Shown here: positions 1,079 to 12,795 of the stretch, piece by piece
Layout: each line of letters starts with the position of its first letter
Numbering within the stretch: the first letter of the stretch is position 1
From: Panopea generosa
Taxonomy: Eukaryota; Mollusca; Bivalvia; Adapedonta; Hiatellidae
Length of the DNA stretch: 64,000 nt
Direction of reading: 5' to 3'
Assembly (NCBI GenBank): GCA_029582155.1
Contig: CM055895.1
Location: forward strand, 44,846,578 to 44,910,577
Program-made: the position numbers and the translations under genes
The notes under the pieces: generated by a model
Databases searched by the model: none
Told to the model about the DNA's origin: nothing
The model's input: only the letters and a program-made list of their open reading frames with translations

Positions 1079-1179
1079 GCAATACCTGGAGCACTTTATA
1101 GAAAATATTCCCATAAACACAGAGAGGAAAGCTCATAAAGTGTTGTCTGTCTGTGAGAAAAGAAACATGGCAGATCAAG
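1079..1179 (+). CDS. NUP85: NUP85 internal exon (first in window)
   Basis: NUP85 is a scaffold nucleoporin of the Y (Nup107-160) complex, an alpha-helical solenoid protein that pairs with Seh1 and works in nuclear pore assembly. This exon starts after TTTTACAG and ends before GTATTA, with one base carried over at each end. It reads QYLEHFIENIPINTERKAHK and then a VCEKRNMADQ segment, which matches the vertebrate NUP85 stretch around YLE..IEHIPLETE as I know the family. The next exon continues in the right phase. Earlier exons, including the Seh1-binding N-terminal part, lie upstream of the window; I saw none in 1-1078. The assignment rests on family recall, not on an alignment. Confidence 0.88.
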
Positions 1180-2964: not shown

Positions 2965-3050
2965 TTAAAAGTATTTGTAAAGTAATGGGAATGCGATGTA
3001 TCAAAAACAAAAGGTTGGGAGCGGCGTTATCCTGGTTTCTGCGATCAAAG
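2965..3050 (+). CDS. NUP85: NUP85 internal exon
   Basis: The exon begins after TGTTTTCAG and ends before GTAAGT. It takes one base from the exon at 1179 and ends on a codon boundary. It encodes V-KSICKVMGMRCIKNKRLG followed by AALSWFLRSK, which fits the NUP85 helix pair recalled in human as RSICK...RNNRLGSALSW..RAKD. The following residue is the Asp of the exon at 6916. The solenoid helices here belong to the C-terminal tail module. Confidence 0.88.
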
Positions 3051-3193
3051 GTAAGTTAAAGATGGTCGCCCTTGTAGAAGTATGTTGTTTTTTATAACAT
3101 CAGTTTTTAAACATGTTCAGCATTTAAACTTGCTAATCTAGCTACTTTTAAGTCTTCATACATGTCAGAATGTTTTATGTATTGCGATTTTAT

Positions 3194-3990
3194 TAGCTCT
3201 ACTGGCCAGAAGGGCATATGCGATGGCGCGTTGTCCATCGTCTGTTGTCTGTTAACAGTACTTTCTCTGAAACCACTAGGCCAATTAAACTGAAACTTCA
3301 CATGAATGTTTCTATTGCATAGGAGACTATACAGAAGTTTTTTGGTTTTTTTCGATCTGAAATTCAAGATGGCCACCATTGCTAAAAGTAGTCCAAAACT
3401 TAAAAAATCTTCTTCTTGTGAACAACCCAACAGATTTTCAAAATGTTAATGTAGTAATGGTAACCAACTATAGTTTTGTTAGATTTGTTCAAATGGTGTC
3501 CCTAGGGTTAAAAATGACCCCGCCCGAGGGTTCAATTAGGGGACACATGTCTTAAATAAATATTAATTTATTTTTTTTAAGATGGAAATGATTTTGCCTT
3601 TATCTTCACAAAAGCATTGTTTAGTGAAGGAGGTTCAGATTTGTAAAAATGGCTGGGTTCCACTGTCTTAAGGGGTCAGGAGGGGCCCCAAAAGGATAAA
3701 AATTTGGAATTACAAAAATCGTTTTCTTAAGAACTGGTATGTCAGATTTGTTCATATTTGGCATAAATTATCCCTATGTGTAGGGGTTTGATTGCAGATA
3801 AGAATTTAGGGGCTAAAATTTATAGGGGCCCTGTAAGGGAACTAAGAATTTTACATAGGGATAATTTGGGAAAACAGAAAGTTCTTTTTTTTTCATCTAT
3901 TCTGAAACCACTAGGCCAGTTAAACTGAAACTTCACATGGATGTTTCTGTTGCATAGGAGACTATACAGAAGATTTTTTTTAAAGTGTCA
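3194..3990 (+). repeat. Dispersed repeat F, one copy
   Basis: Sequence marks include CTGAAACCACTAGGCCAATT, ACTGAAACTTCACATGAATG, TTGCATAGGAGACTATACAG, GAAATTCAAGATGGCC and GGTGTCCCTAGGGTTAAAA. The same blocks recur three times in tandem at 60000-61560 and partly at 15815-15945. It is non-coding. The short open frames on the minus strand recur with the repeat and are not genes. Confidence 0.75.
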
Positions 3991-4090
3991 TGCTGAAGGA
4001 CACCTCACTTAGCCATAGCGGAGGATCAAACCCACATCCCACTGATCCTGGGTCTGATGCTCTACCGCTGGACCATGCACTCCCAAGTCC
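3985..4090 (-). mobile_element. tRNA-derived SINE head (family D)
   Basis: On the minus strand it begins GTCCAGCGGTAGAGCATCAG and carries a B-box-like GTGGGTTTGATCC, then GTCCTTCAGCATGAC. Related copies lie at 17607, 30318 and 57068. Confidence 0.5.
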
Positions 4091-4590
4091 ATCCATTCAT
4101 ATGTCCATTAGTTTGTCCATCCTGAAACGGATGTTTCTGCTCAATAACTTTAGTTTCCATTACAATAATATAAAAGAGTTGAGTTGTTTTTTAGGATAAA
4201 GGTCAATCTAACTGTAACCCCAAAAAAATATTTTCCCAATCGATAACTTAAGCTTTCTTTGAAATATTTTATGAATATATGTGTACCAGTTCCTGACATG
4301 GAAAGAATGGTGAGATAAATCAAGGTTACAGTAACTTAAAATAGAAAACTGGGTTCTGCTATTTTGTGTAGACATTCAGATTGATTGTGAGGTAAATCAA
4401 GTCAATTTTACTGTAACTATAAATAGGAAAATAGCTTCCGCTCTATAACTTTTAGTTCCCTTGTAAAACTTTTTTCAAACTCAAAAACTTTTTGTTCCAT
4501 TTACAAACATCATTTATAATGCTCTTGTTTGTAAAACGCACATATAAACAGCATTGCACTCTTTTGTTTATTGAAACGAAATGTCATGCA
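4090..4590. other. NUP85 intron, no feature seen
   Basis: AT-rich intronic DNA. It has some internally repeated phrases (TTACTGTAAC, AATAACTTTTAGTTCC) but no exon, promoter or intact mobile element that I can support. Confidence 0.5.
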
Positions 4591-4596
4591 CTCAAA

Positions 4597-4855
4597 ACTG
4601 ACTTTGTCCACCATGCGTGCAGATGGTCGTTTGTTCGATCCCTGGCCGTGTAATACCAGAGTTGAAAAGAGGTACTAGAAGCTTCTCGCTTGGCACTCAA
4701 CATTTGGAGGATTGTTCCAGGTCTGGTCATCCTGGTGTTGGTATAATGTGACTGGGTGATACTCCAGTGCTCAGAATGCTTTCTCAAGTAAACAACAACA
4801 GCATGATATGATTAAAAATTGTTGAAAGTGATGCTAAACACCATACAACAACATC
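4597..4855 (+). mobile_element. tRNA-derived SINE (family A)
   Basis: It has the B-box-like GTTCGATCCCTGGCC, then the family A body (GAAGCTTCTCGCTTGGCACT, ATAATGTGACTGGGTG), and ends AAATTGTTGAAAGTGATGCT and a CAACAACA tail. Its A-box region is decayed. It lies in a NUP85 intron. Confidence 0.7.
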
Positions 4856-5076
4856 TGTCTGAGCAAACAGCAGGGGAATTCATTGTCCCATGGACACTTC
4901 TAGTTTTATATACACTTACTGAGTTAGCATAGTGTATGTGTCAACTGTAATATGAAAGTGAATTGTATATTAAAAGTGAATTATTATTTATTAGAGTTTA
5001 TTCAAAAAGTAGTGTATTGTATATTGTAAGTATATTATAATGCATTTGTGAATTTTACTCTGATATTATAAATGTA

Positions 5077-6915
5077 TTTTGTATAATGTATATTTGTACT
5101 TGCAGGATGTCATATTTGTATAATGTATATATGTACCTGCAGGATGTCGTATTTATATAATGTATATATGTACCTGCAGGATGTCGTATTTGTATAATGT
5201 ATATGTGTACCTGCAGGATGTCGTATTTGTATAATGTATATGTGTACCTGCAGGATGTCATATTAATATAATGTATATGTCATATTAATATAATGTATAT
5301 GTGTACTTGCAGGATGTCGTATTTGTATAATGTATATATGTACTTGCAGGGTGTCGTATTTGTATAATGTATATATGTATTTGCAGGATGTCGTATTTGT
5401 ATAATGTATATTTGTTCTTGTAGGATGTCGTATTTGTATAATGTATATATGTACCTGCAGGATGTCTTATTTGTATAATGTATATATGTACCTGCAGGAT
5501 GTCGTATTTGTATAATGTATATATGTACCTGCAGGATGTCGTATTTGTATAATGTATATATGTACTTGCAGGATGTCGTATTTGTATAATGTATATATGT
5601 CCTGCAGGATGTCGTATTTGTATAATGTATATATGTCCTGCAGGATGTCATATTAATATAATGTATATGAGTACTTGCAGGATGTCGTATTTGTATAATG
5701 TATATATGTACTTGCAGGATGTCGTATTTGTATAATGTATATATGTACTTGCAGGATGTCGTATTTGTATAATGTATATATGTACTTGCAGGGTGTAGTA
5801 TTTGTATAATGTATATTTGTTCTTGCAGGATGTCGTATTTGTATAATGTATATATGTACTTGCAGGATGTCGTATTTGTATGATGCATATTTGTTCTTGC
5901 AGGATGTCGTATTTGAATAATGTATATTTGTTCTTGCAGGATGTCGTATTTGTATAATGTATATTTGTTCTTGCAGGATGTCGTATTTGAATAATGTACA
6001 TTATATTTTTTCTTGCAGGATGTCGTATTTGTATAATGTATATTTGTTCTTGCAGGATGTCATATTTGTATAATGTATATTTGTTCTTGCAGGGTGTAGT
6101 ATTTGTATAATGTATATTTGTTCTTGCAGGATGTCGTATTTGTATAATGTATATATGTACTTGCAGGGTGTCGTATTTGTATAATGTATATATGTACTTG
6201 CAGGATGTCGTATTTTGTATAATGTATATATGTACTTGCAGGATGTCGTATTTGTATAATGTATATATGTACTTGCAGGGTGTCGTATTTGTATAATGTA
6301 TATATGTACTTGCAGGATGTTGTATTTGTATAATGTATATTTGTTCTTGCAGGATGTCATATTTTGTATAATGTATATTTGTTCTTGCAGGATGTCGTAT
6401 TTGAATAATGTATATTTGTTCTTGCAGGATGTCGTATTTGTATAATGTATATTTGTTCTTGCAGGATGTCGTATTTGAATAATGTACATTATATTTTTTC
6501 TTGCAGGATGTCGTATTTGTATAATGTATATTTGTTCTTGCAGGATGTCATATTTGTATAATGTATATTTGTTCTTGCAGGGTGTAGTATTTGTATAATG
6601 TATATTTGTTCTTGCAGGATGTTGTATTTGTATAATGTATATATGTACTTGCAGGGTGTCGTATTTGTATAATGTATATATGTACTTGCAGGATGTCGTA
6701 TTTTGTATAATGTATATATGTACTTGCAGGATGTCGTATTTGTATAATGTATATATGTACTTGCAGGGTGTCGTATTTGTATAATGTATATATGTACTTG
6801 CAGGGTGTCGTATTTGTATAATGTATATATGTACTTGCAGGATGTTGTATTTGTATAATGTATATTTGTTCTTGCAGGATGTCGTATTTTGTATAATGTA
6901 TATTTGTTCTTGCAG
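5077..6915 (+). repeat. 37-bp minisatellite made of amplified 3' splice site
   Basis: About 49 units of 37 bp (a few are 38). Each unit holds GATGTCGTATTTG, then TATAATGTATAT and TTGTTCTTGCAG or TGTACTTGCAG. The array runs into the true acceptor at 6915/6916, and the first 13 bases of the NUP85 exon are identical to the start of each unit. Nearly every unit keeps its AG, and no other AG lies inside a standard unit. Two subtypes alternate (TATATGTACTTGCAG and TATTTGTTCTTGCAG). A block of about 488 bp (about 13 units, marked by GTACATTATATTTTTTCTTG at 5996 and 6484) is duplicated. The long minus-strand open frames are artefacts of the period. Confidence 0.92.
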
Positions 6916-6947
6916 GATGTCGTATTTGCCACTCTAATAGCTGAAAA
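6916..6947 (+). CDS. NUP85: NUP85 microexon, 32 nt
   Basis: It starts right after the last unit of the 37-bp array (TTGTTCTTGCAG) and ends before GTGAGT. It encodes DVVFATLIAE plus the first two bases of a Lys codon, which is completed by the A at 7927. The recalled human counterpart is DAAFATLVSDRF. At 32 nt it is well below the usual vertebrate exon size. Its first 13 bases are also the start of every repeat unit upstream, so only the downstream 19 nt and the donor tell it from the decoys. Confidence 0.88.
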
Positions 6948-7293
6948 GTGAGTAGAAATTTTAAAATAATGATGTGCATACAATTGTGTTTATATATAAC
7001 AAATACAGAAACCATGTATTTTCTTTCTGCTGCTTTTTTGATAAAGCACGTTGAGTAATTCTGTCTATGTTTTTAATTTCACAGAGTTAATTTCATGATT
7101 GAATTTTGACACAATCAAGGTACATTAGAAATCACTACAACTAGTTTATTTGAAATGGTTTTCAACTTGCTGCGTATTGTTGTTTCTTCCGGGTTTATTT
7201 GTTCAAACATCTTTGACAAAGGAGCAGAATCAAATTAATATATTGTCCTGAATGTTTGTAAAAATAAAATACTGTTATGTTGAATAACTAGTT
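6948..7293. other. NUP85 intron, no feature seen
   Basis: AT-rich intronic sequence between the microexon and the 27-bp array, with nothing recognisable. Confidence 0.5.
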
Positions 7294-7680
7294 ATGTCCC
7301 CCACTCAGGCAGACAATTATGTCTCTCCCACTCAGTCAGGCAATTATGTCTCCCCCACTCAGGCTGACAACTATGTCTCCCCCACTCAGACAGACAATTA
7401 TGTCTCCCCCACTCAGGCAGACAATTATGTCTCCCTCACTCAGGCAGACAATAATGTCTCACCCACTCAGGCAGACAACTAAATCTCCCCCACTCAAACA
7501 GACAATTATGTCGTCCCCACTCAGGCAGACAACTATGTCTTCCCCACTCAGGCAGACATTTATGTCTTCCCAACTCAGGCAAACAATTATGTCTTCCCCA
7601 CTCAGGCAGACAATTATGTCTCCCCCATTCAGGCAGACAACTATGTCTTCCCCCACTCCCCACTGAAGGAGACAATTATG
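7294..7680. repeat. 27-bp minisatellite
   Basis: About 14 units of a CTCCCCCACTCAGGCAGACA plus ATTATGT type. The unit is a multiple of three, so frames stay open on both strands. There is no initiation context, domain or splice logic, so I read it as non-coding intron. Confidence 0.85.
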
Positions 7681-7926: not shown

Positions 7927-8127
7927 ATTTTTATCGGAGTACAATGAACAAGGGTTTTTCTCGAACCTTGACCTGATAGACAACCTCGGCTCTAGTATGT
8001 TGATCAGTAACCGCCTCACCTTCCTCGGCAAGTACAGGGAATATCACAAACTGTACGAGGAAAAAGAGTTGATGGCGGCAGGATCACTTTTGTTGTCTCT
8101 TCTAACATCACGGCTAGCACCCAGAGA
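7927..8127 (+). CDS. NUP85: NUP85 exon with conserved LIDNLG and LTFLGKYRE
   Basis: This is the largest NUP85 exon here (201 nt). The acceptor is TTTCCAG and the donor GTAAGT. The A at the start completes a Lys codon and the final GA is completed as Glu at 8618. It contains the family's most recognisable stretch: [11 protein letters not shown], then [24 protein letters not shown] and [15 protein letters not shown]. All have close counterparts in animal NUP85 as I recall it, and this exon anchors the gene call. Confidence 0.95.
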
Positions 8128-8617: not shown

Positions 8618-8669
8618 ATTTTGGATCACTCTGTTAAAAGATGCAATAACATTATTGGAGGCTCGAGAT
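8618..8669 (+). CDS. NUP85: NUP85 short exon, 52 nt
   Basis: The acceptor is TTTGCCAG and the donor GTAAGT. It reads (E)FWITLLKDAITLLEARD, matching the FWMTLL.DALPLLE stretch of animal NUP85. The first base completes the Glu codon begun at 8126 and the exon ends on a codon boundary, in phase with the exon at 11109. Confidence 0.92.
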
Positions 8670-11078: not shown

Positions 11079-11108
11079 TTTATGATAGACTTTAACTTGG
11101 TATTTCAG

Positions 11109-11204
11109 TTAATATTTGGCAGTAAGGAGACGTATGAGCTGATGCACTGCCTGGAAGAGCTGACCAAGGATAGACTGTATCTGAGTACAGATATAAACAA
11201 TGAT
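11109..11204 (+). CDS. NUP85: NUP85 exon with TYELMHCLEEL
   Basis: The acceptor is ATTTCAG and the donor GTGAGT; 32 codons, phase 0 at both ends. It reads LIFGSKETYELMHCLEELTK then DRLYLSTDINND, matching the IFS.EQTYELMRCLEDLT stretch near the NUP85 C-terminus. The end of the exon, like the human counterpart, is acidic and probably poorly conserved. Confidence 0.93.
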
Positions 11205-12693: not shown

Positions 12694-12795
12694 GATCTTT
12701 CCGACTTAAAAGAAACAATAGACTTATTAAATCTTGCTTTGACTCGGAACTTGGCTCGGTCAGTCGTTATCGAAGGAACTACAATACTGTCATAG
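12694..12795 (+). CDS. NUP85: NUP85 terminal coding exon
   Basis: The acceptor is ATTATTTCAG. It has 33 codons and the stop TAG at 12793-12795, phase 0 from the exon at 11204. It encodes DLSDLKETIDLLNLALTRNL then ARSVVIEGTTILS. The LALTRNLAR..I.EG pattern matches the LSLARNLARAIIREG end of human NUP85 as recalled. This fixes the C-terminus of the protein. Confidence 0.93.
   Translation, partial: DLSDLKETIDLLNLALTRNLARSVVIEGTTILS

Follow-up and report, generated by a model that had tools for sequence, protein, structure and literature searches.

Decoy splice acceptors in a tandem array before a 32-nt NUP85 exon, and boundary-spanning arrays elsewhere in the Panopea generosa genome

The NUP85 exon and the array that precedes it

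The window, that is, the whole stretch of DNA that was analysed (positions 1–64000), contains exons of the gene NUP85, which are listed in Table 1 with the other features discussed below. A query protein of 157 residues was joined from the first five of these exons, and it aligned without gaps to the Nup85 chains 5a9q (E 9.5e-62) and 6lk8 (E 8.1e-59), which we take to be those of human and Xenopus. Across the 32-nt exon, the alignment places DVVFATLIAE against DAAFATLVSD of the Nup85 chains. An earlier note on this DNA had proposed that the exon was real; the gap-free alignment to the two chains and the reading frame agree with this, and on this homology we regard the exon as real and secure. 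The intron in front of it, which hosts the array, is 3865 nt long (3051–6915), and the next intron is 979 nt long.

Table 1. Positions of the NUP85 features in the window, and unit lengths of the boundary-spanning arrays found at other exons
Feature	Position	Strand	Basis
NUP85 exon	1079–1179		In translated protein
Upstream NUP85 exon; donor GTAAGT after 3050	2965–3050	+	Read from sequence; donor check
True NUP85 exon, 32 nt; acceptor AG 6914–6915, donor GTGAGT at 6948	6916–6947	+	Homology, frame, donor check
Downstream NUP85 exon	7927–8127	+	Frame check, Pfam match
NUP85 exon	8618–8669		In translated protein
NUP85 exon; acceptor at 11108	11109–11204		Read by eye
NUP85 exon; stop codon 12793–12795	12694–12795		Read by eye
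37-bp minisatellite (unit = intron end + AG + copied exon start)	5078–6928	+	Tandem Repeats Finder rows 5078–5280 and 5277–6928; unit reading
48 decoy acceptors	5105–6877 (G of AG, first to last)	+	14-base pattern scan
GTATTTTG at left edge; matches exon GTATTTG (6922–6928)	5074–5081	+	Sequence match; role inferred
Block duplication, 5875–6357 and 6363–6845, 483 bp, 7 mismatches	5875–6845	+	
Donor-side boundary arrays: L027, 41 bp; L045, 34 bp; L067, 43 bp; L083, 108 bp; L120, 35 bp			
Acceptor-side boundary arrays: L032, 44 bp; L044, 60 bp			

Each unit of the minisatellite consists of 24 nt of intron end, including the AG, followed by the first 13 nt of the NUP85 exon. A scan for a 14-base pattern, AG included, with up to two substitutions, identified 49 AG sites between 5105 and 6915, namely 48 decoys and the true acceptor. 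The 48 intervals from AG to AG were 37 nt in 39 cases, 38 nt in four, 36 nt in two, 42 nt in two and 59 nt in one; as these spacings leave no gap that is big enough, no full unit was missed by the scan. The 59-nt interval (5253–5312) includes an additional 22-bp partial copy that lacks an acceptor. The decoy triplet was CAG in 47 of the 48 decoys and TAG in one (5421–5423), and the AG was lost in none. The exact exon 13-mer GATGTCGTATTTG occurred 26 times in 5077–6947 (in 25 decoys and at the exon), and these are its only occurrences on the + strand of the 64-kb window. These copies bear out the 37-bp unit with the first 13 exon bases that the earlier note had described, while its figure of about 49 amplified acceptors holds for the AG sites but includes the true site, which leaves 48 decoys.

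The composition of the unit, which spans both sides of the boundary, indicates that the array began when a stretch across the 3′ boundary of the NUP85 intron was duplicated in tandem, as had been suggested, and that it expanded into the intron. By geometry, only the true copy continues into the coding exon, and the array therefore ends in the true copy. The short match between GTATTTTG at the left edge and GTATTTG in the exon could have seeded the first duplication. The units fall into 23 distinct sequences among 48, and the 483-bp block was copied at a distance of 488, which shows that the array grew partly by block duplication.

The window is rich in minisatellites, with 79 Tandem Repeats Finder rows (some overlapping) and several long arrays. 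The next NUP85 intron carries a 27-bp array (7297–7658) with C/T-rich stretches before CAG that resemble acceptors; the pyrimidine count is 11 of 17 or higher at 23 of these CAGs and 10 at the true acceptor of that intron. The unit of this array does not show the start of the following exon.

An inverted copy of the region upstream in NUP85 was found at the start of the same contig (C2:1–20294 against C2:44826370–44846675, 20.3 kb). They differ by 6 mismatches and 41 gap openings (99.74% identity). A search with the Pfam Nup85 family gave 12 matches, eight at the NUP85 gene and four in this copy. The copy is probably an assembly duplicate and looks like a misplaced contig end. It ends near window base 98, short of the array, and was therefore discarded as a source of a second allele of the array.

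Decoy strength, decoy use and retention of the AG

The decoys were compared with the true site in order to assess how similar they are. Five of the 48 were identical to it from −24 to +13, and six, including the nearest (6877), from −24 to +12. The true site has 11 pyrimidines at the 17 positions from −20 to −4; 30 decoys have fewer, 16 have the same number and two have more. Decoy use would give an exon of less than 250 nt for only five decoys and of 256 nt for a sixth, the other 42 lying more than 256 nt from the donor. Among the six decoys that would yield exons of 70–256 nt, 6877 alone equals the 11 of 17 of the true site and the other five have 9. Pyrimidine count is a crude measure of strength, since taken alone it puts 73 of the 250 YAG sites that lie outside the array in six NUP85 introns level with or above the true site.

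Reading the frame onward from each decoy revealed a stop upstream of the donor at 6947 in all 48 cases, and a premature stop upon decoy use is a feature of regulated decoy acceptors coupled to message decay. The stop lies at the sixth codon for 44 decoys, 24 of which read exactly DVVFV-stop; the remaining four have an extra T and reach a stop at codon 20 (one decoy) or codon 31 (three decoys). Skipping the 6916–6947 exon also disrupts the reading frame. An in-frame exon of 12 nt, encoding DVVF and using a donor inside the array, appears unlikely, as none of the 241 GT in the array scored above 5 of 9, though one of six true donors also scored only 5 (the others 6–8).

The claims of the earlier note on the decoys fared unevenly against these counts. 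Its near-identical decoys were found, some of them being locally identical to the true site, and the D-V-V-F-V-stop reading with its truncated product was exact for half of the decoys and right in its consequence for all. Its statement that only the 19 nt past base 13 set the true site apart is exact for the five decoys identical up to that base, and does not extend to the tract, which is poorer in pyrimidines in 30 of the 48. The near-universal retention of the AG was correct as an observation, the AG being kept in 48 of 48, and carries no signal of selection: 21 of the 37 unit columns are invariant (counted by hand), and an AG would fall among the invariant columns by chance about one time in three (P 0.32; P 0.17 for the AG and the next G). 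The splice letters of the decoys are thus not kept above their surroundings, and selection on the decoy AGs was rejected, many other columns being just as well preserved.

Masking of sites by RNA structure was also considered and set aside, as the fold of 6727–6960 had a z of −0.37 and 66 of 200 shuffles folded at least as well.

Boundary-spanning arrays elsewhere in the genome

A sample of 130 family matches from the same genome was inspected, comprising 50 of 81 myosin matches, 60 of 126 for kinesin and 20 of 39 for UCH. Myosin and kinesin matches were read in order from the best downward, with three kinesin matches skipped as repeats of others; among the UCH matches, 11 long or stop-rich ones were passed over and the last eight were left out. 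Equal-scoring kinesin matches on C3 and C1 hint at further assembly duplicates.

Arrays spanning an exon–intron boundary were identified at seven of the 130 exons, five on the donor side and two on the acceptor side, with splice sites placed by eye (Table 1); those at L067 and L120 may extend past the stretch read. L041 and L054, where arrays end beside the exon, and L131 were counted as non-spanning, as were L062, L075 and L084, which have small, low-scoring repeats (that of L075 overlaps the start of the match). Reading by eye, we found the decoy GT or AG retained in 28 of 29 in-register copies at the seven arrays; a looser scan gave 28 of 31, the two decoys omitted from the in-register set being one each at L044 and L120. 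In the array of L083 (409–728), each 108-bp unit includes about 50 nt of a kinesin exon; the exon-derived part has diverged and GTGAGT is retained in all three copies. Exon-derived columns looked better preserved than intron-derived ones in these seven arrays, a difference that was set aside because coding constraint holds the true copy.

Seven of the 260 match ends lay in arrays, against about 3.6 expected from the density of all 36 arrays, an expectation in which some arrays are counted double and the spanning ones are still present; without shared loci and spanning arrays, it falls to 3.1 of 260. Points 60–250 nt deep in the introns lay inside arrays in 12, 17, 21, 24 and 26 of 260 cases. 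A good part of this excess deeper in introns is geometric, because an array at a boundary has room on one side only; some depletion of arrays near exons is possible alongside it. A search for arrays related to that of NUP85, which skips simple repeats, returned 41 matches including the NUP85 locus itself; related arrays were sought at three of the other matches (on C19, C4 and C1), and AT-rich repeats of 32, 38 and 36 bp, respectively, were found there.

As similar repeats occur on other exons of the same genome, boundary arrays look like a recurrent and probably tolerated feature of this genome that is not special to NUP85. This recurrence is a more important result than the NUP85 array alone. 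In amphioxus, tandem repeats across exon–intron boundaries of the Adh3 and globin genes have been named mirages (PMC3087553; PMC3902484). A tentative extension, which we regard as possible and short of probable, is that the genome is full of such mirages, at a few per cent of conserved exons in this sample, and that they are rendered nearly neutral by exon definition. Of all copies in a mirage, the geometry of the array puts the true one nearest across the exon, and a mirage would therefore be hidden from the splicing machinery. If this is true, mirages would build up in exon-defined genomes with long introns and be purged under intron definition, and NUP85 with its 49 acceptors would be an extreme instance of an experiment on splice-site choice that nature runs across the whole genome.

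Choice of the true site and comparison with known systems

An exon of 32 nt is small for exon definition. We nevertheless favour, with modest confidence, the explanation that the NUP85 array is a nearly neutral mirage in which the true site is preferred for its closeness to the donor, its tract and its exon sequence. Most messages would join 3050 to 6916. The gene would be read by exon definition, with the true acceptor closest to the 6947 donor at 32 nt. The true site would also gain from the weaker tracts found in all but one of the six nearest decoys, and perhaps from the 19 exon nt that the decoys lack. The far decoys would have no donor within the normal exon range, and when a near one was used, which would be rare, its early stop would lead to decay of the transcript. 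The array would therefore be nearly neutral, as would the similar arrays at other exons of this genome.

In human genome-wide data, long introns go with a preference for those splice sites that are closest across the exon (PMC9225289), and by this analogy exon definition is a plausible chooser of the true site. The available text of that study describes a reversed preference for donors with long introns, whereas for acceptors of similar strength the upstream preference was only significantly reduced. Acceptors at least 20 nt apart show an upstream preference, which that text does not say is reversed with long introns; such a preference would favour the decoys and stands against our explanation. 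Three further points weigh against it: no difference separates the nearest decoy, 6877, from the true site between −24 and +12; arrays cover points deeper in introns more frequently than match ends, in part for geometric reasons; and the boundary minisatellites described for human genes can change splicing (PMC2812944), which speaks against neutrality.

A rather unlikely alternative, to which we give some weight, is that of a mildly harmful young expansion, in which use of the decoys would cost a small and constant share of the message, a cost that selection has yet to remove. The turnover in the array is recent, as the seven mismatches in the 483-bp block and the 23 distinct units among 48 suggest, and fewer match ends than points deeper in introns lie in arrays; boundary arrays are not, however, below the rough expectation (7 against 3–4). 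It seems improbable that tract strength and exon enhancers alone pick the true site, with closeness across the exon irrelevant. Five decoys identical from −24 to +13 and 18 of 48 with an equal or richer tract argue against this, even though the tract is weaker in 30 of 48, five of them among the six nearest, and the decoys are without the last 19 nt of the exon.

The earlier note had also raised a length-dependent control of NUP85 dosage, in which decoys would take a share of splicing that rises with copy number and their messages would be destroyed through early stops. We found no support for this proposal and hold it to be very doubtful. Decoy use does lead to a stop before the donor in every case, 18 of the 48 decoys have at least the pyrimidines of the true site, and boundary minisatellites of human genes can alter splicing according to the text available to us (PMC2812944). 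The AG column, on the other hand, is no better kept than many others, similar arrays sit on unrelated exons as well, and 42 of the 48 decoys are more than 256 nt from the donor. With only five decoys giving an exon below 250 nt and a sixth 256 nt, real competition would be limited to the nearest five or six, which makes control by total array length unlikely. An assembly error in the copy number of the array is hardly credible, because 23 of the 48 units are distinct and both flanks of the array continue within the gene, even if the inverted 20.3-kb copy indicates that the assembly is not error-free.

NUP85 offers a natural set of 49 acceptors for one donor, and hence a natural test of splice-site choice. 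If the seven sampled arrays are typical, smaller counterparts would be numerous in the genome, at donors as well as acceptors, and splicing in this species could show whether or not splice sites pair with the nearest partner across the exon.

Choice among near-identical splice sites has so far been studied with engineered duplications. Reed and Maniatis in 1986 reportedly used constructs with duplicated splice sites, in which similar sites competed in cis; the NUP85 case differs in being natural and 49-fold, with a 32-nt exon and long introns. The likeness to the intronic VNTR of ABCA7 that affects splicing, as far as the portion of that report at hand goes, is that of a tandem repeat in an intron (PMC5954066). 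Closer to NUP85 are the human minisatellites at exon–intron boundaries of genes in segmental duplications, repeats of about 30 bp that can create new introns (PMC2812944). As described in the accessible part of that report, they belong to recent primate paralogs, have about four units on average and change gene structure, whereas NUP85 has 49 sites and was found once besides the apparent assembly duplicate.

The closest relatives are the amphioxus mirages, which include the globins BflGb6 and BflGb9, with PGBD5 and TnC also cited in the available text (PMC3087553; PMC3902484). They too are minisatellite-like repeats across a boundary, on the donor or the acceptor side, with many copies carrying splice letters. 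By its sequence, the NUP85 array is a mirage: its unit contains the intron end as well as the exon start, the AG is retained in 48 of 48 decoys, and turnover inside the array is evident from the 23 distinct units and the copied 483-bp block. It lies in another gene and another genome, and its 49 acceptors compare with the 6 and 3 repeat units of the two BflGb6 haplotypes (PMC3087553). RT-PCR suggested that regular splicing persists in the amphioxus genes (PMC3087553; PMC3902484); such normal splicing and the length variation between haplotypes are amphioxus features, while NUP85 is known from the sequence of one assembly. Among the literature matches listed, and in the text available from them, the term mirage is tied to lancelets only. 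The kind has thus already been named, and the NUP85 array is an additional, copy-rich mirage; the frequency of such arrays in this genome is what extends the earlier picture.
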